Assembly (NCBI GenBank): GCA_031281585.1
Contig: JAITFE010000030.1
Span: 1 to 64,000 of the forward strand
Length of the DNA stretch: 64,000 bases
DNA from: Bifidobacteriaceae bacterium
GTDB taxonomy: Bacteria; Actinomycetota; Actinomycetes; Actinomycetales; WQXJ01
Direction: 5' to 3'
Part shown: in pieces, positions 9,996 through 29,150 of the stretch
How the letters are laid out: each line of letters starts with the position of its first letter
How positions within the stretch are numbered: the stretch's first letter is position 1
The notes under the pieces: model-generated
Told to the model about the DNA's origin: nothing
Databases searched by the model: none
Seen by the model: only the letters and a program-made list of their open reading frames with translations
Translations under genes and position numbers: made by a program

Positions 9996-10624
9996 TGCTT
10001 GGCGCCAACTCCAAGCCATTGGAGCAGCGGCTGTTCGGCCGGCCGGCGGCCTGGCTGGTCAAGCACCATGTGCGCGCGAACACGGTGACGGTGGCAGGAG
10101 TGGCCGTGCAGTGCGCGGTCGCGTTGACGCTGTTCCCGCTCGGCTACCTCTGGCAGGGGGCGGTGGTTCTGGCGGCGGTGGTGACCACCGATGCGCTGGA
10201 CGGCACCATGGCCCGGCTGGCCGGGACGGCGTCGAAATGGGGGGCGTTCCTCGACTCGACGCTGGACCGGTTGGCGGACGCGGCGATTTTCGCCGGGTTG
10301 ACCGTGTACCTGGCCCGCGAGGGGCACACCGCGGGCGTGATCGCCGGCGTGGCGGCGTTGGCGGCGGGAACCGTTGTGCCCTACACCCGCGCGCGGGCGG
10401 AGGCGCTGGGCTACCAGGCCACCGTGGGGATCGCGGAGCGCGCCGACCGGTTGATCGTGGCCCTGGTGGCGGCGTTCTTGACGGGCCTTGGGCTCAGCCC
10501 GCTGGTGTTGGTGGTCGCCTTGGGAGTGCTCGCGGCGGCCAGCCTGGTGACGGTGGGGCAGCGGTCATGGGCGGTCTACACGCAGGCGCGGGCGGAAGCG
10601 CAATCGCAGGCGGACGAACAGTGA
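9995..10624 (+). CDS. pgsA: CDP-alcohol phosphatidyltransferase, probable phosphatidylinositol-phosphate synthase
   Basis: This 209-residue integral membrane enzyme has about six hydrophobic segments. It carries the complete CDP-alcohol phosphotransferase signature D66-x2-D69-G70-x2-A73-R74-x8-G83-x3-D87-x3-D91. In this gene position mycobacterial and related enzymes join CDP-diacylglycerol to inositol 3-phosphate to give PI phosphate, the first step toward phosphatidylinositol mannosides. It overlaps both neighbours by one to four bases. Specificity for inositol phosphate rather than glycerol phosphate is inferred from synteny with patA and pimA. Confidence 0.9.
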   Translation: MLGANSKPLEQRLFGRPAAWLVKHHVRANTVTVAGVAVQCAVALTLFPLGYLWQGAVVLAAVVTTDALDGTMARLAGTASKWGAFLDSTLDRLADAAIFAGLTVYLAREGHTAGVIAGVAALAAGTVVPYTRARAEALGYQATVGIAERADRLIVALVAAFLTGLGLSPLVLVVALGVLAAASLVTVGQRSWAVYTQARAEAQSQADEQ

Positions 10625-11535
10625 ACCTGACGGCGCTGGCCTGGAAATGGGTGCCGCGCCTGCCGGACGGCCTGGCGCGCGCCTTGTTCACTCTGGGCGC
10701 GGACTTGGCCTGTGTCCGCCCGGGCAAGGGCGTGCGCCAACTGGAGGCGAATCTGCGCCGGGTGCGCCCCGAACTGGCCCCCCGGGCGCTGCGCCGGCTG
10801 ACCAGGGAGGCCATGCGGCGCTACCTCCGCTACTACTGCGAGGCGTTCCAGGTGGCGAACTGGCCGAAGGAGCGGGTCACGGCGATGGTCCGCATGGGGG
10901 ACGAGCAGCGGGTCCGCTCCGAGATCGGGGAGGCCCCGCGACTGGTGCTGGCTTTGGGGCACATGGGCAACTGGGACTTGGCGGGCGCGTGGGCCACCGA
11001 CCACTTGGCTCCCATCACCACGGTGGCCGAGCACTTGCGGCCTGAGGAGGTGTTTCAGGACTTCTTGGCCATGCGCCGCCGGATCGGCCTGAACATCATT
11101 CCGCTGGAGCGCGGCCAATCGGTTTTCCGGCAACTGCTGCGCGTGACCCAGGAGGCCACCAAAGCCGGCGAGCCGTGGGCGGTGCCCCTGCTGGCGGACC
11201 GCGAACTGGGCCGGGGCGGGGTCGAGGTGGACTTCTTCGGGGAGAAGGCGCTGATGGCGCCGGGGCCGGCCGCTTTGGCGCTGGCCTCAGACCGGCCGCT
11301 GTACGCCGTGGCGATGTACCGGGACGGGCCCGGCTACGCGCTGGAGTTCTCCGCCCCCATCGCGCCGCCGCCCGGCCTGCCCAAAGCCGAACAGGTCGCC
11401 GCCATGACGCAGGCCTGGGCCGGATTCCTCGAAGGCGCCATCCGCCGCCACCCCGCAGATTGGCACATGCTGGCCAAGGTGTTCGTCGCGGACCTCGACC
11501 CGGAGCGGCTGGCCCAAGTGCGGGGCGGGGCCTGA
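10621..11535 (+). CDS. Phosphatidylinositol mannoside acyltransferase (PatA/HtrB-like)
   Basis: This 304-residue LpxL/HtrB-fold acyltransferase carries the HxxxxD motif HMGNWD (H114-D119). Relatives in this position acylate the mannose of PIM1/PIM2 on the inner leaflet of the membrane. An amphipathic N-terminal stretch fits membrane association. The GTG start at 10621 overlaps the pgsA stop (GTGA), and the stop overlaps the pimA start by one base. Gene order PI-phosphate synthase, PatA, PimA is conserved across PIM-making actinobacteria and supports the call. Confidence 0.9.
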   Translation: MNLTALAWKWVPRLPDGLARALFTLGADLACVRPGKGVRQLEANLRRVRPELAPRALRRLTREAMRRYLRYYCEAFQVANWPKERVTAMVRMGDEQRVRSEIGEAPRLVLALGHMGNWDLAGAWATDHLAPITTVAEHLRPEEVFQDFLAMRRRIGLNIIPLERGQSVFRQLLRVTQEATKAGEPWAVPLLADRELGRGGVEVDFFGEKALMAPGPAALALASDRPLYAVAMYRDGPGYALEFSAPIAPPPGLPKAEQVAAMTQAWAGFLEGAIRRHPADWHMLAKVFVADLDPERLAQVRGGA

Positions 11536-13185: not shown

Positions 13186-13361
13186 CCGCGGCGGTGATCA
13201 GCGGAAACACTTCACACGGGTTGGAAACACGGCGGTCGTTCTGACGCAATTGAGGAGAAACTGCTGGGAAACCGCCTCCTTCTAGCGTCTTTGGAGAGGC
13301 GCCGGCGGTCCTCAACGCGTTGTCCCACGCACCCGCCGATCGCCCGGAAGGAGATATTTCG

Positions 13362-16133
13362 ATGACCAATCCGCGGCGGAAAGTCAGCGGGGGTTTTGTC
13401 AAGCGCTGCGTTGCGACGGTGGCGGCGGCGTCCGTGCTGGGCGTTGTCGGCGCCGGCGCAGCCTGGGGTTATACCAGCGTGACCATAGTGGGGGGCGACC
13501 AGTGGAACGTGAATGACGCGGTCAGCCCGCGTGTCGACACAGGCAGCGTCATGTCCACGAGTTCCAACGCCTTGATGGGCTACGGCGGCCTGCGGGTGCA
13601 GGTGCGCGGCGGCGCTAGCCCGCTGGGCGGTCTGCTGCTGCGGGGGTTCGAGTCGACCTATGACGGCCTGGACACGTTCGAGGCCCGCCAAGGCGTGGAC
13701 GTGGACGGGGTTGTTGTCCAGCGCGAGCTCACCATTGACCGCGTGACTAGCGTTGGCCGCTTCTACGACGCCTTCACCAACACGACCGCCGCGTCCGTGA
13801 CCGTGGACGTGGCCTTCGGCGGGCAACTCGGCTACGACACAGGGGCGAACCAGAGCGCGATCGCCGCGACCGGCGACGGCGACGTTGCGATCACGGCCGC
13901 CGACGGCTGGGCCAGTTGGTACACCCCGAGCAACGGCCCCGGCTCGGCCAGCAACAACGGCCCGTCCGCCACGGTCTTCGGAACCCCCGGATTCGCGGGA
14001 TCGCTTGGCCGGGTGGGCAACTTCCTGCGCGACCCGTTCACCAACGACCTGCCCGCCACGGGCGACGAGTCGAACCATCCCGCGTTTGTCAACACGCTGA
14101 CGATCGCACCGGGCCAGACCGCCGCGGTGGTTCACTTCGTCGCCACGGGACTCTCCGAGGTCCGCCCCGTCGCCCAAGGGGCGGCCGTGCCGCCCGCCGG
14201 CGCCGAGGTGGCAGAGGTGCAGGCGGCCGCTGCCGCCCTCGCGGCGGCCCCGGATTGGGACGGTTTGAACTCCGCCGAGGTCTGCGCGATCGCGAACTTC
14301 GACCTGGCGGGAACTGACTGCGCGACCCCCGAAGGGCCGGTCCTGGGCGGGATAGGCGCGACGGCGGCCCCGATCAAGGGAACCACTAGCGTGGCCTACG
14401 ACGTGCGCGGGAAGACCATCACCGACCTCCTGGCGGACCTTGAGGCCGGCGTGGTCACCAACGTCGAATTGGTGCAGGCCTACCTGGACCGGATCGAAGC
14501 CTATGACAAGGGGCCGTTCGGCCTGCATGCGGTCCTGACGATCTCCCCGACCGCGCTTGAGCAGGCCGCCGCCGCTGACGCCGCCCGCCAGGCGGGGGAC
14601 GACCGCCCGCTGCTCGGCATCCCGATCCTCGTCAAAGACATAGTCGACACCTACGACATGCCGACCACCGGCGGCTCGCTGGTGTTCGACGGATACCAGC
14701 CGACGGCGGACTCCTTCCAGGTGGCCAAACTCCGCGAGGCGGGCGCCATCATCTTGGGCAAAGCCAATCTGGCCGAGTTCGCCAACGACGGGCATTTCAG
14801 CCCCAGCGCCTACGGGCAGGTGTGGAACGCCTTCGACCCGTCCCGCTCTTCGATCGGCTCCAGCGGCGGATCCGCCGTGGCGGTCGCCTCCGGGTTCGCC
14901 GCCGCCGCGATCGGCACGCAGACCGGCGACTCGCTGTGGGGTCCGTCCGGCGCGGCCAGCCTCTTCTCGCTGCGCGGCACGGACGGCATCCAATCAAGCG
15001 CGGGGACCATGCCGCTGACTTTGATTCAGGACTACGTCGGCTTCATCGCCCAGTCGAATGAGGACCTGGCGTTGCTGCTCTCCGTGGCGGCCGTCGACAA
15101 CCCGGACGACGTGCTGGATGACGTGGCCAACGGGAGCCGTCCCGCCGACTGGACCGAGTTCTTGAAGGCGGACGCCCTGCAGGGCAAGCGCATCGGCATT
15201 CCGGACGGCGCGTTCGACGACCCGTTCGGGACCACCGCGGTCACGGACGCGCTGGCCGCGCAGTTGGCCAACTTCGAGGCGGCGGGCGCCACCCTGGTGC
15301 ACATCCCGGCCGCCCCGGCCGCGTTGGGCGGGCGCCCAACGGGCGACCTCGGCTATGAGGGCTGGTCGCAATGGATCGACGCCCATCCGGACAACCCGTA
15401 CACGGCGGCGGAGCAGATCATCCGGAGCCCGCTGCGCGTCCCCAACCGCGTCAGCACGAACCCGTACACGGGGACGGGCAGGATGACGGACGCGGAACAG
15501 CGGGCGTTCGAGCAGTGGCGGGCCGACAGCCGCGCCGCCCTGGCCGACTGGATGGACCAGAACGGGGTTGACGCGGTCCTCTACGGCGCCGAACTGAGCG
15601 ACATCCACTTGAACGATTCGATCCAGCCGAGCTTTGGGCGGATCGACCCGCAGTCTTCCGCCACCGGCGTGCCCACCGCGATCTTCCCGGCCGGGTTGAA
15701 CGCCCACGGCAACCCCGTCGGCTTCCAGTTGCAGGGCAAGGCGTTCCAGGACGCCGAGTTGTTGGGCTTCGCCTACGCCTTTGACCAGGTGGCCCACGGC
15801 CGGGTGCTCCCGTCGGTCACCCCGCCGCTGCCGCTGGCGGCCGGCGAGTCCCCGGACGATCAGGACGGCGAGGAGGATCCGGACGGCGAGGAAGACCCTG
15901 ACGGGGAGGAAGACCCTGACGGTGAGGAGGGTCCCGGAGGCCAAAACGGTTCGCCCAGCCCGAGTGGTTCGGCGAAGCCGAGCGCCGATGCCGTGAACTC
16001 GCCCCCCAGCGCCAAGGCCCTCCCGATCACCGGCGTTGGCGGCCAGATGTGGTGGACGCTGGGCACCAGCGCCCTCGCGATAGCCTTGGGCGCGGCCCTG
16101 CGGATGCGAGCCCGGAAGCCGGCCTCAACGTGA
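13362..16133 (+). CDS. Sortase-anchored (LPITG) surface amidase fusion
   Basis: This 923-residue exported protein has a signal peptide (about 1-37), a beta-rich N-terminal domain (about 38-330) with no family I can name, and an amidase-signature domain (about 345-815). The amidase lysine is in LVKDIVDT (K425), the GSSGGS block spans 499-504, and the nucleophile is expected at S524. That last block reads GTQTGDS, whereas the family usually has GTDTGGS, so activity is uncertain. Four acidic DGEEDP-type repeats and a Ser/Pro stalk precede LPITG (887-891), a membrane helix and the tail RMRARK. It should be covalently attached to peptidoglycan by a sortase. ATG at 13362 follows AAGGAGAT. Confidence 0.85.
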   Translation: MTNPRRKVSGGFVKRCVATVAAASVLGVVGAGAAWGYTSVTIVGGDQWNVNDAVSPRVDTGSVMSTSSNALMGYGGLRVQVRGGASPLGGLLLRGFESTYDGLDTFEARQGVDVDGVVVQRELTIDRVTSVGRFYDAFTNTTAASVTVDVAFGGQLGYDTGANQSAIAATGDGDVAITAADGWASWYTPSNGPGSASNNGPSATVFGTPGFAGSLGRVGNFLRDPFTNDLPATGDESNHPAFVNTLTIAPGQTAAVVHFVATGLSEVRPVAQGAAVPPAGAEVAEVQAAAAALAAAPDWDGLNSAEVCAIANFDLAGTDCATPEGPVLGGIGATAAPIKGTTSVAYDVRGKTITDLLADLEAGVVTNVELVQAYLDRIEAYDKGPFGLHAVLTISPTALEQAAAADAARQAGDDRPLLGIPILVKDIVDTYDMPTTGGSLVFDGYQPTADSFQVAKLREAGAIILGKANLAEFANDGHFSPSAYGQVWNAFDPSRSSIGSSGGSAVAVASGFAAAAIGTQTGDSLWGPSGAASLFSLRGTDGIQSSAGTMPLTLIQDYVGFIAQSNEDLALLLSVAAVDNPDDVLDDVANGSRPADWTEFLKADALQGKRIGIPDGAFDDPFGTTAVTDALAAQLANFEAAGATLVHIPAAPAALGGRPTGDLGYEGWSQWIDAHPDNPYTAAEQIIRSPLRVPNRVSTNPYTGTGRMTDAEQRAFEQWRADSRAALADWMDQNGVDAVLYGAELSDIHLNDSIQPSFGRIDPQSSATGVPTAIFPAGLNAHGNPVGFQLQGKAFQDAELLGFAYAFDQVAHGRVLPSVTPPLPLAAGESPDDQDGEEDPDGEEDPDGEEDPDGEEGPGGQNGSPSPSGSAKPSADAVNSPPSAKALPITGVGGQMWWTLGTSALAIALGAALRMRARKPAST
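15864..15935 (+). repeat. Four 18-bp tandem repeats coding acidic DGEEDP units
   Basis: Four consecutive 18-bp units (15864, 15882, 15900, 15918) encode DGEEDP three times and then DGEEGP. They form the acidic stalk before the LPITG anchor of the amidase. Units differ by a few mostly silent bases, so the array is not freshly expanded. Stalk length could vary between strains. Confidence 0.85.
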
Positions 16134-18830: not shown

Positions 18831-20243
18831 ATGGACCTGCCCGAGTTCATCGGCGTGATGAAGCGAAGCTGGGTGCTTGTGTGCCTGATCGCGTTGGCGG
18901 GTGTCCTGGTCGGCGTGGTCGCCGGTGTGGTTCGGACGCCTCTTTACACCGCCCAAGCGCAGCTTTACGTGTCGGTCCGGGCCAGCGGCACCCTGGGAGA
19001 TTTGGTCCAGGGATCCACTTATGCGCGCCAGGCCGTGGTCAGCTACACGCAGGTCGTCACCAGCCCCTCGGTGCTCGGCGTTGTGGCCGAATCGCCGGAG
19101 GTCCCGTACACGGCAGCCGAGTTGAACGGCAAGGTGACGGCGGATTCGCCGTCAAGCACTTCGTTGATCAACATTAGGGTGTTAGATCCGGATCCCGAGG
19201 TGGCGGCGCTGATCGCGAATCAGACCGCCGCCGCGTTCATTGACGTGGTGGCTAACGAGTTGGAGCCAGCGGGGCCGGACGGCGTCAGCCCGGTGGCGAT
19301 TCACGTGATCGGGCCGGCGACCCCGCCCGGCGCGCCGAGCGGCTTGGGTCCGCTCCGGACTGGGGCGATTGGGCTGATGATGGGGCTGGTGTTCGGGGTG
19401 GCGATCGCGGTCCTGCGGTCCAAGGTCGACACACGGGTGCGGAGCGAGGAGGACGTGCGTACGGCATCGGGCAAGCCTTTGCTGGGAACTATCGCGTTCG
19501 ATCGCAACGCGGTGGCTTCCCCGCTGATCGCTGAGGCGGACCCGGATTCCATGCTGTTGGAGCACTACCGGGCGCTGCGCACGTCGCTGTCCTACGTCAA
19601 TCCGGGCGGGCCGCTGAAATCCTTTGTGATCACCAGCTCCGGACCCGGCGTGGGAAAGACCCTGACCGCGTGCAACCTGGCCTGGGTGACGGCCCGCGCG
19701 AGCGCTCGCGTTCTGCTGCTGGACTCCGACCTGCGCCATCCGCGCGTCTCGAAGACCATGCACATACCCAGGACCCCCGGCCTGTCGGACGTGCTGGCGG
19801 GACGGATCGAGCCCAGGGACGCCATCCAAAACTGGGGAGGCAGCGGACTTAGCATTATGCCGGCCGGCCACACCCCGCCGAACCCCAGCGAGTTGCTCGG
19901 CTCGAGGACCATGCGGGACCTGATGGCCTACCTTGAGGCGAATTACGACTTGGTGATGGTCGACTCGCCGCCCGTGGACCTGTTCACGGACGCCACCCTG
20001 TTGGCGAAGCTGACCGAGGGCGCGGTGGTGTTGGCGGCCTACAAGAACACCAAGGCGCACGGGTTGGCGAAGGCCGTCGAGTTGATTGAGGCGGTCGACG
20101 GCAACGTGTTCGGCGTGGTGCTGACGTGCGCCCCGGACGCTGGCTCGGAGTATTACGGCAGTTATTACGGGGGCAGGCCGGTCAGAACGGCGACCGACTC
20201 GTCGGGGCGGCGCGCGCACCGCTCCTCGGCGGCAAAGCGATGA
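18831..20243 (+). CDS. Wzz/BY-kinase fusion controlling polysaccharide chain length
   Basis: This 470-residue protein combines a Wzz-type chain-length domain with two membrane helices (about 13-33 and 175-200) and a cytosolic bacterial tyrosine-kinase domain. The kinase has Walker A GPGVGKT near 272, Walker A' LLLDSDLRHP near 300 and Walker B VMVDSPPV near 380. A C-terminal tyrosine cluster YYGSYYGG (about 440-447) is the expected autophosphorylation site. It opens the polysaccharide locus and is followed by its likely phosphatase. The combined Wzz plus kinase in one chain is the form usual in actinobacteria. Confidence 0.92.
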   Translation: MDLPEFIGVMKRSWVLVCLIALAGVLVGVVAGVVRTPLYTAQAQLYVSVRASGTLGDLVQGSTYARQAVVSYTQVVTSPSVLGVVAESPEVPYTAAELNGKVTADSPSSTSLINIRVLDPDPEVAALIANQTAAAFIDVVANELEPAGPDGVSPVAIHVIGPATPPGAPSGLGPLRTGAIGLMMGLVFGVAIAVLRSKVDTRVRSEEDVRTASGKPLLGTIAFDRNAVASPLIAEADPDSMLLEHYRALRTSLSYVNPGGPLKSFVITSSGPGVGKTLTACNLAWVTARASARVLLLDSDLRHPRVSKTMHIPRTPGLSDVLAGRIEPRDAIQNWGGSGLSIMPAGHTPPNPSELLGSRTMRDLMAYLEANYDLVMVDSPPVDLFTDATLLAKLTEGAVVLAAYKNTKAHGLAKAVELIEAVDGNVFGVVLTCAPDAGSEYYGSYYGGRPVRTATDSSGRRAHRSSAAKR

Positions 20244-20250
20244 GCCCGCG

Positions 20251-20919
20251 TTGAGCCGACCGTTCAGCGTGTTGGCGGTGTGCACCGGCAACGTTTGCCG
20301 CTCGCCCATGGCCGCCGCGCTGATAGCGCGGCACCTCGTGCGGGCGGGGGTCGGCTCTGGCCTGGTCCAGGTGGAGTCTGCGGGCACCCACGCCTTGGCG
20401 GGCGCACCCACCGACCCGCCCGTCCTGGCCATGCTGGAAGGCCTCGGCGCCCGGCCCGACACGCCGCACCGGGCGCGTTTCGTCACCGAAAACCTGGTGG
20501 ACCAGGCCGATCTGATTCTGGCCATGGCGCGGGGCCACCGCGACTGGATGGTGCGCGAATGGCCGGCTGCGGGCCGCCGGGTCTTCACCCTGAGAGAGCT
20601 GGCCGGGATCGCGGTGCAGTTCCCCTCCGAGGGACCGGTGCCCGTGGGCGGCGCCAAGGGGCGCTTGATTGGCTGCGGGTCTGCGGGGGATCCGGTCGGC
20701 GGAATACGCCCGGCCTTGACCCGCGTGGTGGAAACCGCTTCGGCGTTGAGGGGCCGGGCCACGCGGGGGTTCGCGCCGCGTGACTTCGATGTGGTGGACC
20801 CCTACCGCCGCCCCCCGGAGATCTACCGCCAAATGGCGGCGCAACTGGCCCCCGCAGCCCAGCAGGTGGCGGACTGGATAGCCACCCATGTTGAAAGGGC
20901 GGGCGCGACGTCCGCATAA
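20251..20919 (+). CDS. Low-molecular-weight protein tyrosine phosphatase
   Basis: This 222-residue phosphatase has the P-loop CTGNVCRS (C11 nucleophile, R17) and the general-acid motif DPY in VVDPYRRP near residue 187. It probably dephosphorylates the preceding BY-kinase; kinase-phosphatase pairs cycle to regulate polysaccharide export. The family is usually about 150-190 residues; this one is longer because of a glycine-rich insert near 125-160. The start is TTG at 20251, seven bases after the kinase stop; no ATG or GTG lies close to the P-loop. Confidence 0.88.
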   Translation: MSRPFSVLAVCTGNVCRSPMAAALIARHLVRAGVGSGLVQVESAGTHALAGAPTDPPVLAMLEGLGARPDTPHRARFVTENLVDQADLILAMARGHRDWMVREWPAAGRRVFTLRELAGIAVQFPSEGPVPVGGAKGRLIGCGSAGDPVGGIRPALTRVVETASALRGRATRGFAPRDFDVVDPYRRPPEIYRQMAAQLAPAAQQVADWIATHVERAGATSA

Positions 20920-22316: not shown

Positions 22317-23917
22317 GTGAGTGCCTCGCCGTCCTTGCGCCAATCGTTGCGTGACGCTACCCCCTACCTGGCCCTGGCTTTGCTGGCGCTGATTGTCTTG
22401 ACAACGAGCCCGCTATCCCCCTGGAGCACTGCGGTGCAGACGGCGGACTCGTCGGACTTCTTCTACGAGGGTGCACGCGTTCTGGCCGGAGCTGCGCCTT
22501 ACGTTGACTTCTTCGACCACAAGGGACCTGCGATCTTCCTGATCAACGCAGCGGGCCAGGTTGTTCTCGGCGAGTTGGGGGTGTGGTTGGTCGAGTTGAT
22601 TTCACTCTCGTTGGCGGCGTCGATCTGCTACCGAACCATGCGGGTCTTGTTCGGGACCCGAGCTTCCTTCTTGGGCACGGCCACCGTGCTGGTGTTTGTC
22701 GTCTCGTGCTTGGAGCACGGCAACTTTACCGAGGAATACGCTCTGCCTCTGGAGATGGCGGCGCTGGCGGTGCTGGTTCGTTTCGCTGCGGTAGATCGCC
22801 TAGGCCGTGTGGGTGCGGTGACAATGGGAGTGACTTGCGCGGCCGCGTTCTTGCTGAAGCTCACGACGGTCCCGCTGTGGGCGGCTTACTGCCTTGGGGT
22901 CGCCGTGTTCCTGATGGCTCGCCGCCGGACTCGCGAGGCTGCGGCCGCAGCCGTATGGTTTTTGACTGGAGCGTTGGCTGTACTGGTGCCAGTGTTCGGC
23001 TGGTTGGCCGCGAGGGGCGCGCTGGGAGCCTGTTTTGACCAGATGATCGCCTTCAACCGGGAGTACGCGGGGATCATGGGTCCAGGCGAGTCAGTCGGAA
23101 TGCTCGTCAAGTACTTTGCGCGGCCCGACACGCTCGCGGCCGTCTCCGTTCTTGTCTCCGGCGGCATGGCGCTCTGGGCCTGGCGGCGCCAGACGCGTGG
23201 GATCAGGGGGGGGGGGGGGGCTCCGCAAGAACGCGAGCAGTCGTTTTGCCATCTGGCAGATTCCTTGGCGCTGACCGTGTCTTGTTGTTGTCGCTGAGCA
23301 ACCTGGCCGCGCTGATTCTGCTGCTCGTGGCTGCGGCGATGCCTGGCCGCGCTTACGGGCACTACTTGTTGGTGCTGGCCCCCTGCCACGCACTTGTTTG
23401 CGGCTTCTTGTGGCGGGCGACGGTGGTGTTCATCGCTCGACGGAGGCCTGCAGCGCGAACTGTGCTGGCGATTGGCCTAGCGGTGTGCGTTCTGGCGGCA
23501 GGCTCGCTCTACGTGGCCTTCAGGCTCGCGCACAAGTCGCAATTCGGATTCTCATCCAGCGGCCCGGAGGCCGGGTTCCAGGCCGAAATGGCAGACGCCA
23601 TCCGGAGCAACACCCCCAACGAAGAGCCGATTCAGGTCTACGGAAACGCGAGCTGGATCTACCTTGCGTCGGATCGTCTAGCAGCCACAAAGTACCATTA
23701 CATCCCGCTAAAGGGCGAGCCGCCAGCACTCCGTGGCGAGGTGCTCGGCCTGATCGAGGACGCCCGTCCGCGCGTGATCATCGACGTAGACGACAGACTC
23801 AAGGCGACTGGCTTTGATCTCCTCCAATACAGCCTGGTCTACCAGCAGGTCGACAACGGTCTGCCAATGACCTACAGGGTCTACGCACTGCCTCAGGAGA
23901 TCCCGTCCCAGGGGTAG
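22317..23917 (+). CDS. GT39-like membrane glycosyltransferase, frame broken at a poly-G tract
   Basis: Two adjoining frames (22317-23297 and the frame that runs to 23917) together form one multi-pass glycosyltransferase of about 533 residues. The first half has an N-terminal membrane helix and the loop DSSDFFYEGARVLAG with YVDFFDHKGPA, typical of GT39-type enzymes that use lipid-linked sugars. The halves meet at 15 consecutive G bases (23206-23220). With 15 G the product stops 26 codons after the tract; 13 or 16 G would restore one frame through a glycine loop between membrane segments. GTG at 22317 is the likely start. As printed the gene is OFF or carries a tract-length error. Confidence 0.8.
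23206..23220 (+). repeat. Homopolymer of 15 G inside a glycosyltransferase
   Basis: Fifteen consecutive G bases follow GGGATCA. Runs this long are prone to slippage, and this one lies exactly where the reading frame breaks. It encodes glycines in a cytosolic loop, where length changes by one codon would be tolerated. Confidence 0.9.
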
Positions 23918-24258
23918 ATCTCATGACTCGTCTCATAGGCAGTGATTGGATTATGTGGGGTGGTGGGGTGGCGTTCCTGGTGGTGGCGGTGGCTGACCGC
24001 TTGTAGCTCGTGCACAGTTTCCGATGCACGAATCTCGCCGTTGAAGACCGCCAGATCGCTGCCGGTCAGGAAGGCGCGTGTCCTTGGCTGGGGATGGTTG
24101 CACCGCACTACCCCCAAGGTGGTTTGGCCGGATCATGGGCCCCGGGGACCTGCGCCAGTCCGACTGCTCGGCGCGTGCCGTTTCGAAACGAGGGGCCTCA
24201 TGTACACTCGACTGGCGACGAAATGATGCAAAGACCTAATCAGAAGCAGGTGACTCGC
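23918..24258. other. Intergenic region, no gene recognised
   Basis: These 341 bases between the GT39-like gene and the epimerase show no convincing coding frame. The left part is rich in TGGGG/GGTGG runs. A TACACT -10-like hexamer lies near 24203-24208 upstream of the epimerase. The GC content begins to fall here. Confidence 0.4.
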
Positions 24259-25230
24259 ATGAGGGTGTTGGTGACAGGAGCTGCCGGATTCATCGGTAGT
24301 TCCTTGGTTGACTATCTCTTGTCCGCGACGGACTACCACGTTGTGGGGATCGACAGCTTCTCCGACTACTATTCTGTGGGGACCAAAGAGAACAATATTC
24401 GGGATGCTGGGCTGTCTGAGAGATTTGCTCTGCTCCGTTGCGATCTTCTCTCTGCGGACCTTGAGGCCATCGTCCGGGAAGTCGATGTCATCTTCCACTT
24501 GGCTGGCGAGCCGGGGGTGAGGGGATCGTGGGGGCATGGATTCCGAAACTATGCGGACGCCAACATACTTGCGACACAGCGGTTGCTAGATGCAGCCCTA
24601 AGCTGCACACGGTTGCGGCGGTTCGTGTACGCCTCGTCCTCCTCAGTGTACGGGGACGCTGACCGGTACCCAGTCACCGAAATGACATTGCCGAATCCGC
24701 TGAGTCCCTATGGTGTCACAAAGTTAGCGGGCGAACATTTGTGCGGGCTATATGGCAAGGTGTTCAACCTCCCCACCACAATGCTGAGGTACTTTACCGT
24801 CTACGGTCCGCGCCAGAGACCGGACATGGCGTTCACCCGCATGCTTCGCTGCGCCGCGACGGGCACCGAATTCGATCTCTACGGCGACGGCTCGCAGATC
24901 CGCGACTTCACCTATGTGGCCGACATAGCAGCAGCGAACATTGCGGCGGCGGAAGGAGACCAGGCACCGGGCACAGTGATAAACCTTGCCGGGGGCTCGG
25001 AGGTGTCTATGCGGGAAGCGATTTCGGAGATCGAGAAGGTTACTGGGAAAAGCCTCCTTTTACGCACTCAAGGGCGTGCGTCCGGAGATGTGATGAGGAC
25101 TGGTGCCGAGACTGAGCGCGCCCATCGATTGTTGGGGTGGCGGCCCCGAGTGGGCCTGTCAGAAGGCCTGGCGAGGCAGTATCAATGGATTGTTGAGGAA
25201 CTTGAACGCACAACGGTCGGTTCAGAATGA
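24259..25230 (+). CDS. NAD-dependent nucleotide-sugar epimerase/dehydratase
   Basis: This 323-residue extended short-chain dehydrogenase has the Rossmann motif GAAGFIG (7-13) and the catalytic YxxxK at Y151-K155 in SPYGVTK, with serines SSSSVYG near 127. It resembles UDP-glucose/UDP-glucuronate 4-epimerases. It would convert a UDP-hexose or hexuronate at C4 for the polysaccharide repeat; UDP-glucuronate from the nearby ugd is a plausible substrate. It is coupled by ATGA overlap to the following GT4 gene. An in-frame ATG at 24222 is an alternative start. Confidence 0.88.
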   Translation: MRVLVTGAAGFIGSSLVDYLLSATDYHVVGIDSFSDYYSVGTKENNIRDAGLSERFALLRCDLLSADLEAIVREVDVIFHLAGEPGVRGSWGHGFRNYADANILATQRLLDAALSCTRLRRFVYASSSSVYGDADRYPVTEMTLPNPLSPYGVTKLAGEHLCGLYGKVFNLPTTMLRYFTVYGPRQRPDMAFTRMLRCAATGTEFDLYGDGSQIRDFTYVADIAAANIAAAEGDQAPGTVINLAGGSEVSMREAISEIEKVTGKSLLLRTQGRASGDVMRTGAETERAHRLLGWRPRVGLSEGLARQYQWIVEELERTTVGSE

Positions 25231-26360
25231 AGCGAATCGTATTCGCAGTTTCAAACTGCAAGAGAATCGGCCCAGTGAAGCAAACCCTGAATATAATCAG
25301 GGGGCTGGACAGGGCAGCATTTGAGCCCATTTTGGTGACGCTTTTTCCTGAAATGGACCAATCCACTTTGATAGCCGCTTATGTGGATGAAGTGCGAGAG
25401 AGGCACTGTCTCGGTCTGAGCCGTGCGCAAGCCGCAGTTCAAGGGAAGCGCCACCTGAACGAATTACTGGAGAAGATCGAGCCCGACATTATCCATGCTG
25501 TCGGTATGCCCATCTACTCTTACAGCCTCGGATACAGAAGCGCAGGACACGTAACGACGCTGCGTGCATACCTGCCCGTTGATTATCGCGATCGGTTTGG
25601 GAAGCTGGCTGGAGGGCTGCTAGCTAAGAGAGATGTTGAGTTGATCAGGCGGCAGCAGGCTGCGGAAGAAGGCGTGGTGACTTGTTCAATGGCACTCGCC
25701 GAGCTTTATGAGCGAGAGCACGGTCTGTGCCTGAAGGTGATCCGAAACGGTGTTGACACGAATTCCTATGCACCGCGAGCCGAAGGCGAGCGGCAGTCAG
25801 CACGGAGGTCATTGGGCCTGCCGAGGGAGGGCCTAATCGTGACTTATGCCGGACCAATGATAGATCGAAAAGACCAGCAATCGGCAATCGAAGGATTCCT
25901 GGCCTCGCGAATATCTGGTTCGCACCTGCTACTCCTCGGCGGAGGCGAGAACTACGACAAGTTGAGGAAACGATACTCGCGCCACTCGGCAATTATCATG
26001 CCTGGAGACGTGGAACAGGTCCGAGAGTATCTCGCTGCTTCAGATCTCTATGTGTCCACAAGCAAGTCTGAGGGGTTGCCGAATGCCGTTTTGGAGGCAA
26101 TGTCGGTGGGTCTCCCCGTTGTGCTATCCGACATTCCGCAGCATCTGGAAGTTCTGCGGTTGGCGGCTTCGGTGGGGACTTCGTACGCTCTAGGCAGGAC
26201 TTCCGATCTTGCCGAGAAACTGCTGGGTATGGCGAATCGGGATTTGGCCGGTATGGGACGGTCGGCTTCCTGTGCGGTTCGGAAGTCACTGTCTTCCGTT
26301 GAGAACAGCAGACAATACCAAAGACTATATGATCGGCTCAATATGCAAAGAGGGGCGTGA
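25227..26360 (+). CDS. GT4-family glycosyltransferase
   Basis: This 377-residue GT-B enzyme has the C-terminal donor-binding pattern SKSEGLPNAVLEAMSVGLP (about 277-295), an EX7E-type motif. It should add one sugar of the lipid-linked repeat unit on the cytosolic side. It overlaps the epimerase start-to-stop by four bases and is followed two bases later by the TupA-like gene. Codon use is more AT-rich than in flanking genes, as throughout this block. Confidence 0.88.
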   Translation: MKRIVFAVSNCKRIGPVKQTLNIIRGLDRAAFEPILVTLFPEMDQSTLIAAYVDEVRERHCLGLSRAQAAVQGKRHLNELLEKIEPDIIHAVGMPIYSYSLGYRSAGHVTTLRAYLPVDYRDRFGKLAGGLLAKRDVELIRRQQAAEEGVVTCSMALAELYEREHGLCLKVIRNGVDTNSYAPRAEGERQSARRSLGLPREGLIVTYAGPMIDRKDQQSAIEGFLASRISGSHLLLLGGGENYDKLRKRYSRHSAIIMPGDVEQVREYLAASDLYVSTSKSEGLPNAVLEAMSVGLPVVLSDIPQHLEVLRLAASVGTSYALGRTSDLAEKLLGMANRDLAGMGRSASCAVRKSLSSVENSRQYQRLYDRLNMQRGA

Positions 26361-27309: not shown

Positions 27310-27677
27310 CGGTTGGCCTTTCCGGGTCAGGCTAGACATGGGAGATGGATAGAGGGGGTAGGCGGAGTGCTGAAGCCTGGAGCGACTGCCAGTCGCGTAC
27401 GTGGCTGCGGAATCGTGAAGGTGCAACCCGGAGAAGGGAACGAGAGAATGCCGCGTGCGGGGGTTGGGTCGATCAACCGATGTTCGGAAGAGCTATGGGA
27501 TCTGATTGATCCGGGGTACGTGCCGCGTTTCGAAGGGGATCCGGATCAGGCGGGTAGGCGAGGATCTTCGGCACCTGGGGCCTCGGGAGTGGGACCACGC
27601 GCCCAATGCATTTGTGGGTGCGGGTCCCCGCAGATGAAGTACGGGGTCGAGATGGGCGAATTGAACTAGGGGTAGTG
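27310..27677. other. Intergenic region, no convincing gene
   Basis: A 118-codon open frame exists at 27313-27669, but its composition is glycine/arginine-rich, it has no recognisable motif and no good start signal. It is treated as non-coding. The end of the region carries the ribosome-binding site AGGGG for the flippase gene. Confidence 0.35.
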
Positions 27678-29150
27678 GTGTCGTCAACTATGGATGGTTT
27701 GTCGGAGGCAGGGCACCAGAAAGACAGCGGTTCGCCGCCGGCGCTTCGGGCCGGTGTGTGGTACACGGCAACCATCGTCTTTACTCGTGCATCGGGCCTA
27801 ATAACGGTTCCACTGTTCGCCCGACTACTGACGAAGGAAGAGTTTGGAACCTATTCCAATTTCGTAGTCGTTGTTCTGATTGTGGGAATACTCACTGGTT
27901 TTCGGGGTTCCTTGGCGATCCCTCGAATGAAGTTGGATCTGGGAGGCCAAATTGACCGCTTCTGCTTCTCAACCCTTGCCTTGACGTCGATCATTACGCT
28001 AGTATGCTATGGGCTTTCGCTGTTGTTCAAACAGGCGATTATGGGGTTGCTGGGCTTGAGCGAGATCTACCTGCACATTATGTTTGTCTATCTGCTGGCA
28101 TTTCATGCATTCGAGATTATGGCCTCTCGCGCTCGGGCATTCTACCGATATAGGCTGTTCGCGATCTTGAGCGCCGGCTCGACGCTCGGCGGCGCAGCGC
28201 TGTCGTTAGTGTTTGTCGTGTTCTTTCGAGACCATCTACTCGGGCGTACGATTGGGCAGTACCTTCCCGGAACTCTAATTGGTTTTGGTCTCTATGTCTT
28301 CCTGGCAATTAAGTCGAAGGGAATTACTTTCAAATACTGGGGCACGGTTGCGGCGCTATGCCTGCCGTTGGTGCCAAATGTCTTGTCGCTCTATGTGTTG
28401 AGCTCTTCTGACAGAATTATGATCACGGCATATTGGGGTGCGGCGAATACGGCGCTGTACGCACTGGCCGCTAGCCTGGCGAGTATTGTAGGGGTGCTGT
28501 TCCACGCTATGAATGACGCCTGGTCACCTTGGCTATTTGAAAGGCTCAGCCTTGGCGCCGCGGGTATCGTACGAAGGGCGTCAAGCGAATATTTCCTTGT
28601 ATGTATGACCTTGTGTGTCACCGTGATTCTGCTGAGCCCGGAGGCAATTGGGCTGCTGGGGGGCAAGTCTTTTCAGGATTCCCTTGGGTTGGCACCCCCG
28701 CTGATCGTAGGCAGTCTATTTCAGGCTTCCTATGGCCTGTACGCCAATTTGCAGTTTTATTGCAAGAAGACTGTAGGAATCGCGGTCGGATCGGTGGTGG
28801 CCGCGTCTGTGAACTTGGTGCTCAACCTGATACTGGTGCCGCAGTTTGGTATGTACGCGGCCGCGTATGATGCTTTGGTTGGCTACGGAGTGCTGCTGGC
28901 AGCGCACTATTTGCTGGTGCGACGCTTGGATTACCATAGGGTGTATAGCGTGAAGGTGATTGTGGGAGGCACCGTAGGGTGCATCGGATTGATTCCGGTC
29001 GCCTTGTGGTCGTACGACCACGTCGTGTTTCGATTCTGTCTCTTGGGCACCCTGGTTGGGGGGAGTGCGGCGTGGCTCGTCACACGGCGCCGGGCGCAGA
29101 GAATGGAAGATGAGGGACAGGGCGGAGGAAGGATGCGAGAGGAGATTTGA
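27678..29150 (+). CDS. Wzx/MATE-type polysaccharide flippase
   Basis: This protein of about 490 residues has 12-14 hydrophobic helices spread through its length and belongs to the MOP flippase group. It should flip the undecaprenyl-linked repeat unit across the membrane. Features include the N-terminal GLITVPLFARLLTKEEFGTY and an asparagine-rich helix LVLNLILVPQFGMYAAAYD in the C-terminal half, both usual for Wzx proteins. GTG at 27678 fits the AGGGG site; ATG at 27690 is possible. Its GC content is low for this genome. Confidence 0.88.
   Translation: MSSTMDGLSEAGHQKDSGSPPALRAGVWYTATIVFTRASGLITVPLFARLLTKEEFGTYSNFVVVVLIVGILTGFRGSLAIPRMKLDLGGQIDRFCFSTLALTSIITLVCYGLSLLFKQAIMGLLGLSEIYLHIMFVYLLAFHAFEIMASRARAFYRYRLFAILSAGSTLGGAALSLVFVVFFRDHLLGRTIGQYLPGTLIGFGLYVFLAIKSKGITFKYWGTVAALCLPLVPNVLSLYVLSSSDRIMITAYWGAANTALYALAASLASIVGVLFHAMNDAWSPWLFERLSLGAAGIVRRASSEYFLVCMTLCVTVILLSPEAIGLLGGKSFQDSLGLAPPLIVGSLFQASYGLYANLQFYCKKTVGIAVGSVVAASVNLVLNLILVPQFGMYAAAYDALVGYGVLLAAHYLLVRRLDYHRVYSVKVIVGGTVGCIGLIPVALWSYDHVVFRFCLLGTLVGGSAAWLVTRRRAQRMEDEGQGGGRMREEI

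Follow-up and report, generated by a model that had tools for sequence, protein, structure and literature searches.

The 64-kb stretch of DNA analysed here, hereafter the window, carries a likely homopolymer contingency locus, in which slippage within a tract of 15 G (G15) would toggle a GT-C sugar transferase belonging to a surface-polysaccharide cluster. Both the tract and the gene appear to be real and, judging from the sequence, the gene is probably phase-variable.

A transferase gene split at a 15-G tract

G15 is the sole homopolymer of at least 7 bases in the window, where the next longest G/C run has 6 bases. Under a first-order Markov model, runs of at least 15 bases are expected by chance 0.003 times per window and 0.18 times per genome, and G/C runs of at least 6 bases are rarer in the window than the same type of model predicts (26 observed vs 88 expected). 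A homopolymer far beyond chance length therefore lies within a reading frame, a feature of slipped-strand phase-variable genes. The upstream frame, taken to start at a GTG at 22317 although the true start may lie elsewhere in the same frame, is open over 296 codons to the tract and ends at a stop at 23295-23297. The downstream half is open in a different frame with a strong coding signal (23222-23914, the stop running through 23917). Tract lengths of 1 mod 3 (10, 13, 16) join both halves into a single protein of 531-533 residues, and the remaining lengths lead to a stop around 15-30 codons past the tract. Neither half contains any further stop or frame break; the length of the tract sets whether the product is full-length or truncated, the two halves being otherwise intact, which is the second characteristic of such genes. 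These results confirm the first-pass annotation, which had located the 15-G run precisely at the frame break, with exact positions, and had correctly calculated that 13 or 16 G rejoin one protein. Strand structure near the tract showed nothing unusual (z +1.5), and a promoter scan retrieved no sigma-70-like site.

In the proposed mechanism, replication slippage would add G's to the tract or remove them. Lengths of 1 mod 3 would yield the complete enzyme (about 530 residues), the tract being read as a few glycines within a loop that tolerates them, and other lengths would yield a product of about 320 residues deprived of the last helices and of the C-terminal domain, very probably inactive. The population would then be a mix of cells adding and cells not adding one sugar to the exported glycan. 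We infer here three things, namely that the tract actually varies in length, that the short form loses its activity and that the glycan changes. The on/off transferase switch suggested by the initial annotation is accordingly retained for the split gene, the position of the tract at the break and the identity of the transferase, phase variation itself being strongly suggested.

Enzyme identity, homologues and gene neighbourhood

The only Pfam family matched by the N-terminal half is PMT_2 (PF13231, 31.6 bits), and searches of NCBIfam and of PDB sequences gave no match. The fold was taken from a homologue (L037) and not from the window protein: its AlphaFold model (mean pLDDT 71.8) displays a GT-C fold with multiple membrane helices and matches ArnT, OST, DPY19, ALG9 and AftA, the best match being ArnT (5f15, E 7e-6, probability 1.00). 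The PMT_2 match together with the GT-C fold of the homologue therefore suggests that the product is most likely a membrane glycosyltransferase using a lipid-linked sugar donor. The transferase part of the earlier “GT39-like” description is thereby supported, but the GT39 label itself is loose, since the PMT_2 model is broad and yeast Pmt1-Pmt2 rank far behind ArnT among the fold matches. The likeness to ArnT (PDB 5f15, 5ezm), a GT-C aminoarabinose transferase, concerns the fold of the close homologue, whereas sequence identity to ArnT is 13-16% and a lipid A target is not expected in an actinobacterium.

The whole protein is encoded in one uninterrupted frame in two genomes of the same genus (G002 and G008); the G002 protein is the same as that found in JAIRYJ010000008.1, “Bifidobacteriaceae bacterium isolate Gsp477_bin37”. 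Both halves from the window align over consecutive stretches of these homologues, flanking a variable loop. In the homologue model, the site of the tract corresponds to a loop joining two helices, variable in length and modelled with low confidence, where extra glycines should be tolerated. This loop is rich in Arg and Lys and is thus probably located on the cytoplasmic side, according to the positive-inside rule. The tract is not conserved, as no G/C run of at least 6 bases occurs in the gene of either homologue (44% identical), and neither a same-species genome nor a tract-bearing orthologue was found among 18 genomes of the family. A more distant paralogue (31% identity) is present in the same genome, on contig C12.

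The gene is surrounded by functions of polysaccharide synthesis and export (Table 1). Further neighbours comprise GT4 enzymes, a TupA-like ATP-grasp protein, a Polysacc_synt_2 dehydratase and two AT3-SGNH acyltransferases, and the neighbourhood is, from its predicted gene content, a surface-polysaccharide cluster. This context suggests that the polysaccharide itself may vary.

Table 1. Coordinates of the split transferase gene, its tract and neighbouring genes in the window
Feature	Position	Strand	Evidence
Wzz/tyrosine-kinase-like chain-length protein	18831..20243	+	Pfam
Low-molecular-weight tyrosine phosphatase	20251..20919	+	Pfam
N-terminal half, GT-C membrane glycosyltransferase	22317..23204	+	Pfam PMT_2; 44% identity to both intact same-genus homologues
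15-G tract at the frame break	23206..23220	+	Only homopolymer of at least 7 bases; 1 mod 3 lengths join the halves
Out-of-frame tail past the tract in the assembled form, stop-terminated	23221..23297	+	Frame reading
C-terminal half of the same protein, other frame, with stop	23222..23917	+	38% and 34% identical to the C-terminal portions of the two homologues; coding score 37.7 over 231 codons
NAD-dependent epimerase/dehydratase	24259..25230	+	Pfam; start inferred within ORF 24010-25230
GT4-type glycosyltransferase	25227..26360	+	Pfam
Wzx-type polysaccharide flippase	27606..29150	+	Pfam Polysacc_synt

Two other genes of the window are worth noting. Positions 13320-16133 encode a putative cell-wall-anchored amidase-like protein, recognised from the look of its sequence, that carries an LPITG sorting signal as well as an acidic DPDGEE repeat. 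Positions 10111-11535 encode a protein of the Lipid A acyltransferase family (PF03279) in this actinobacterium, perhaps a phosphatidylinositol-mannoside acyltransferase homologue, to judge by its family.

Repair genes, assembly quality and competing readings

Gsp477 is a sample of the termite Glyptotermes, Gsp477_bin129 being listed from this host (PMC11707648); the genus therefore occurs in termite guts, and the bacterium of the window probably comes from such a gut. MutS_V was not found in the source genome and five relatives, and NucS is present in all six. NucS-type repair leaves indels uncorrected (PMC8228993), and Bifidobacteriaceae are reported to lack mutS and mutL in general (PMC11707648). 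In these organisms, mismatch repair would consequently miss slippage in a long tract.

The source assembly (3.98 Mb, 169 contigs) is a draft of short-read type and contains an artefact of direct relevance: the start of contig C59 (L022, 1-64) consists of C16 followed by an Illumina adapter (CCCTACACGACGCTCTTCCGATCT), that is, adapter read-through and poly-G assembled into the genome. Poly-G low-complexity sequence is also abundant at contig ends in related bins, and an artefactual origin was accepted for C59 and for many contig-end tracts in the relatives. Given these contig ends, G15 could itself be suspected of being a product of sequencing and absent from the genome. It lies, however, more than 23 kb from a contig end, is single and clean, and gives way to the expected second half of the gene, whereas artefactual poly-G never returns to true sequence. 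A pure poly-G artefact was rejected for this interior tract flanked by homologous sequence; we grant it next to no probability and regard a genuine tract as much the most probable reading.

The assembled length calls for more caution. A study of bifidobacterial G-tracts warned that database entries may not reflect the true distribution of tract lengths (PMC9187656) and, because of the adapter and poly-G artefact in this draft assembly, the exact length of 15 is insecure and the gene may be on. There is a small but appreciable chance that the tract is real with a wrong assembled length, nearly all cells being in frame, the gene on and switching not meaningful. Such an error would alter the state assigned to the gene and leave its mutability, since a 15-G tract unprotected by MutS-type repair should vary regardless of which length is commonest. 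A recent pseudogene, with a tract that lengthened by slippage and has since become fixed out of frame in the species, would agree with the out-of-frame assembled form and with the two homologues devoid of tract. It is nevertheless an unlikely explanation, as the halves are free of any other stop or frame break, the second keeps its full coding signal and a long pure tract stays reversible; the C12 paralogue is no proof of dispensability. Transcriptional slippage is known at homopolymers and would readily occur at a run of 15 G, so that slippage of the RNA polymerase, or ribosomal frameshifting, could supply some full-length protein from unchanged DNA. We consider this very unlikely as the explanation of the locus, and it is compatible with slippage of the DNA, with which it probably would act jointly.

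Known switches and other tracts in the lineage

The closest known case is that of the sortase-pilus switches of Bifidobacterium breve UCC2003 (bbr_0113 and bbr_1889), for which variation of the G-tract length has been proven (Penno et al. 2022, PMC9187656). There too, an intragenic G-tract splits the gene into two frames, slippage restores it and a surface structure is concerned, and the names given by NCBI to relatives of the source genome place it in the same family as B. breve. The target differs, being in B. breve a pilin with the tract between the signal peptide and the LPXTG part, and here a transferase of a polysaccharide cluster with the tract in mid-protein; length variation, proven in the former, is proposed from the sequence in the latter. 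Phase-variable poly-G genes of glycan synthesis in Neisseria and Campylobacter (transferases for pilin glycosylation, capsule and LOS) similarly hold a G-tract in the middle of a sugar transferase gene acting on surface glycans, but these bacteria are unrelated to the present one. Their phase-variable transferases are mostly cytoplasmic nucleotide-sugar enzymes, whereas a GT-C membrane enzyme is concerned here. Poly-G switches are best known in such pathogens and in a few bifidobacterial pili. If the proposed switch is true, on/off surface variation would be used by symbionts as well, with a polysaccharide gene in a probable insect-gut relative and signs of more in the lineage, and phages, protists, the host or its diet are candidate drivers of switching in the gut. 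Our literature search found no paper on slipped-strand variation in termite symbionts.

Tracts of at least 10 bases were listed in ten related genomes and a subset of the interior ones was fetched. Interior G/C tracts occur at the 5' end of genes with a signal-peptide-like start in 14 of 50 cases, those of the source genome included, compared with 95 of 1475 random positions drawn from the same loci (Fisher p = 4e-6). The data that suggested this pattern also served to test it, using a crude rule for signal peptides and this subset of tracts. The enrichment counts in favour of a contingency locus at G15 and is in itself a lead, and some of the tracts may be regulatory rather than intragenic. 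Tract-adjacent genes encode a rhamnogalacturonan lyase, GH127, GH26 and GH101 enzymes, a CshA-type adhesin, a DUF11 surface protein, an AT3-SGNH acyltransferase and an MFS transporter. We tentatively envisage, with somewhat less than even confidence, that the gut Bifidobacteriaceae of this lineage possess a wide repertoire of poly-G/C switches, located at the start of genes for secreted enzymes and surface proteins as well as in the present transferase. Together these would make the secretome of an insect-gut symbiont phase-variable, a state maintained by the absence of indel-correcting mismatch repair. The G15 transferase switch would join an already known class, and the possible lineage-wide set is the more novel part.

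Several of these sites deserve individual mention. A G10 tract immediately precedes the downstream part of a rhamnogalacturonan lyase (PL11; L128, 2491-2500), whose Pfam match begins at model position 20, and another precedes that of a GH127 enzyme (L107, 1530-1539), matched from model position 51, as if the first residues of both were encoded in another frame. Taken alone, the short left halves at these two tracts gave no relevant Pfam match, and both genes are therefore cited as tract-adjacent only. In the source genome, a C9 run falls where the frame of a long TPR-repeat gene is broken, on contig C78 (L026, 2728-2736), possibly a second switch or a broken gene, and a C11 run directly follows an ATG on contig C83 (L024, 3340-3350), out of frame with the DUF4352 membrane protein that comes after it. 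In three related genomes (L093 at 1808, L105 near 1435 and L118 at 2540), C/G tracts adjoin a palindrome-like site, GGGAC(T/C)TAAGTCCC, two of the three lying at a similar distance upstream of homologous signal-peptide genes. This site resembles the mycobacterial DosR box, and is perhaps the site of a regulator rather than a slippage tract.
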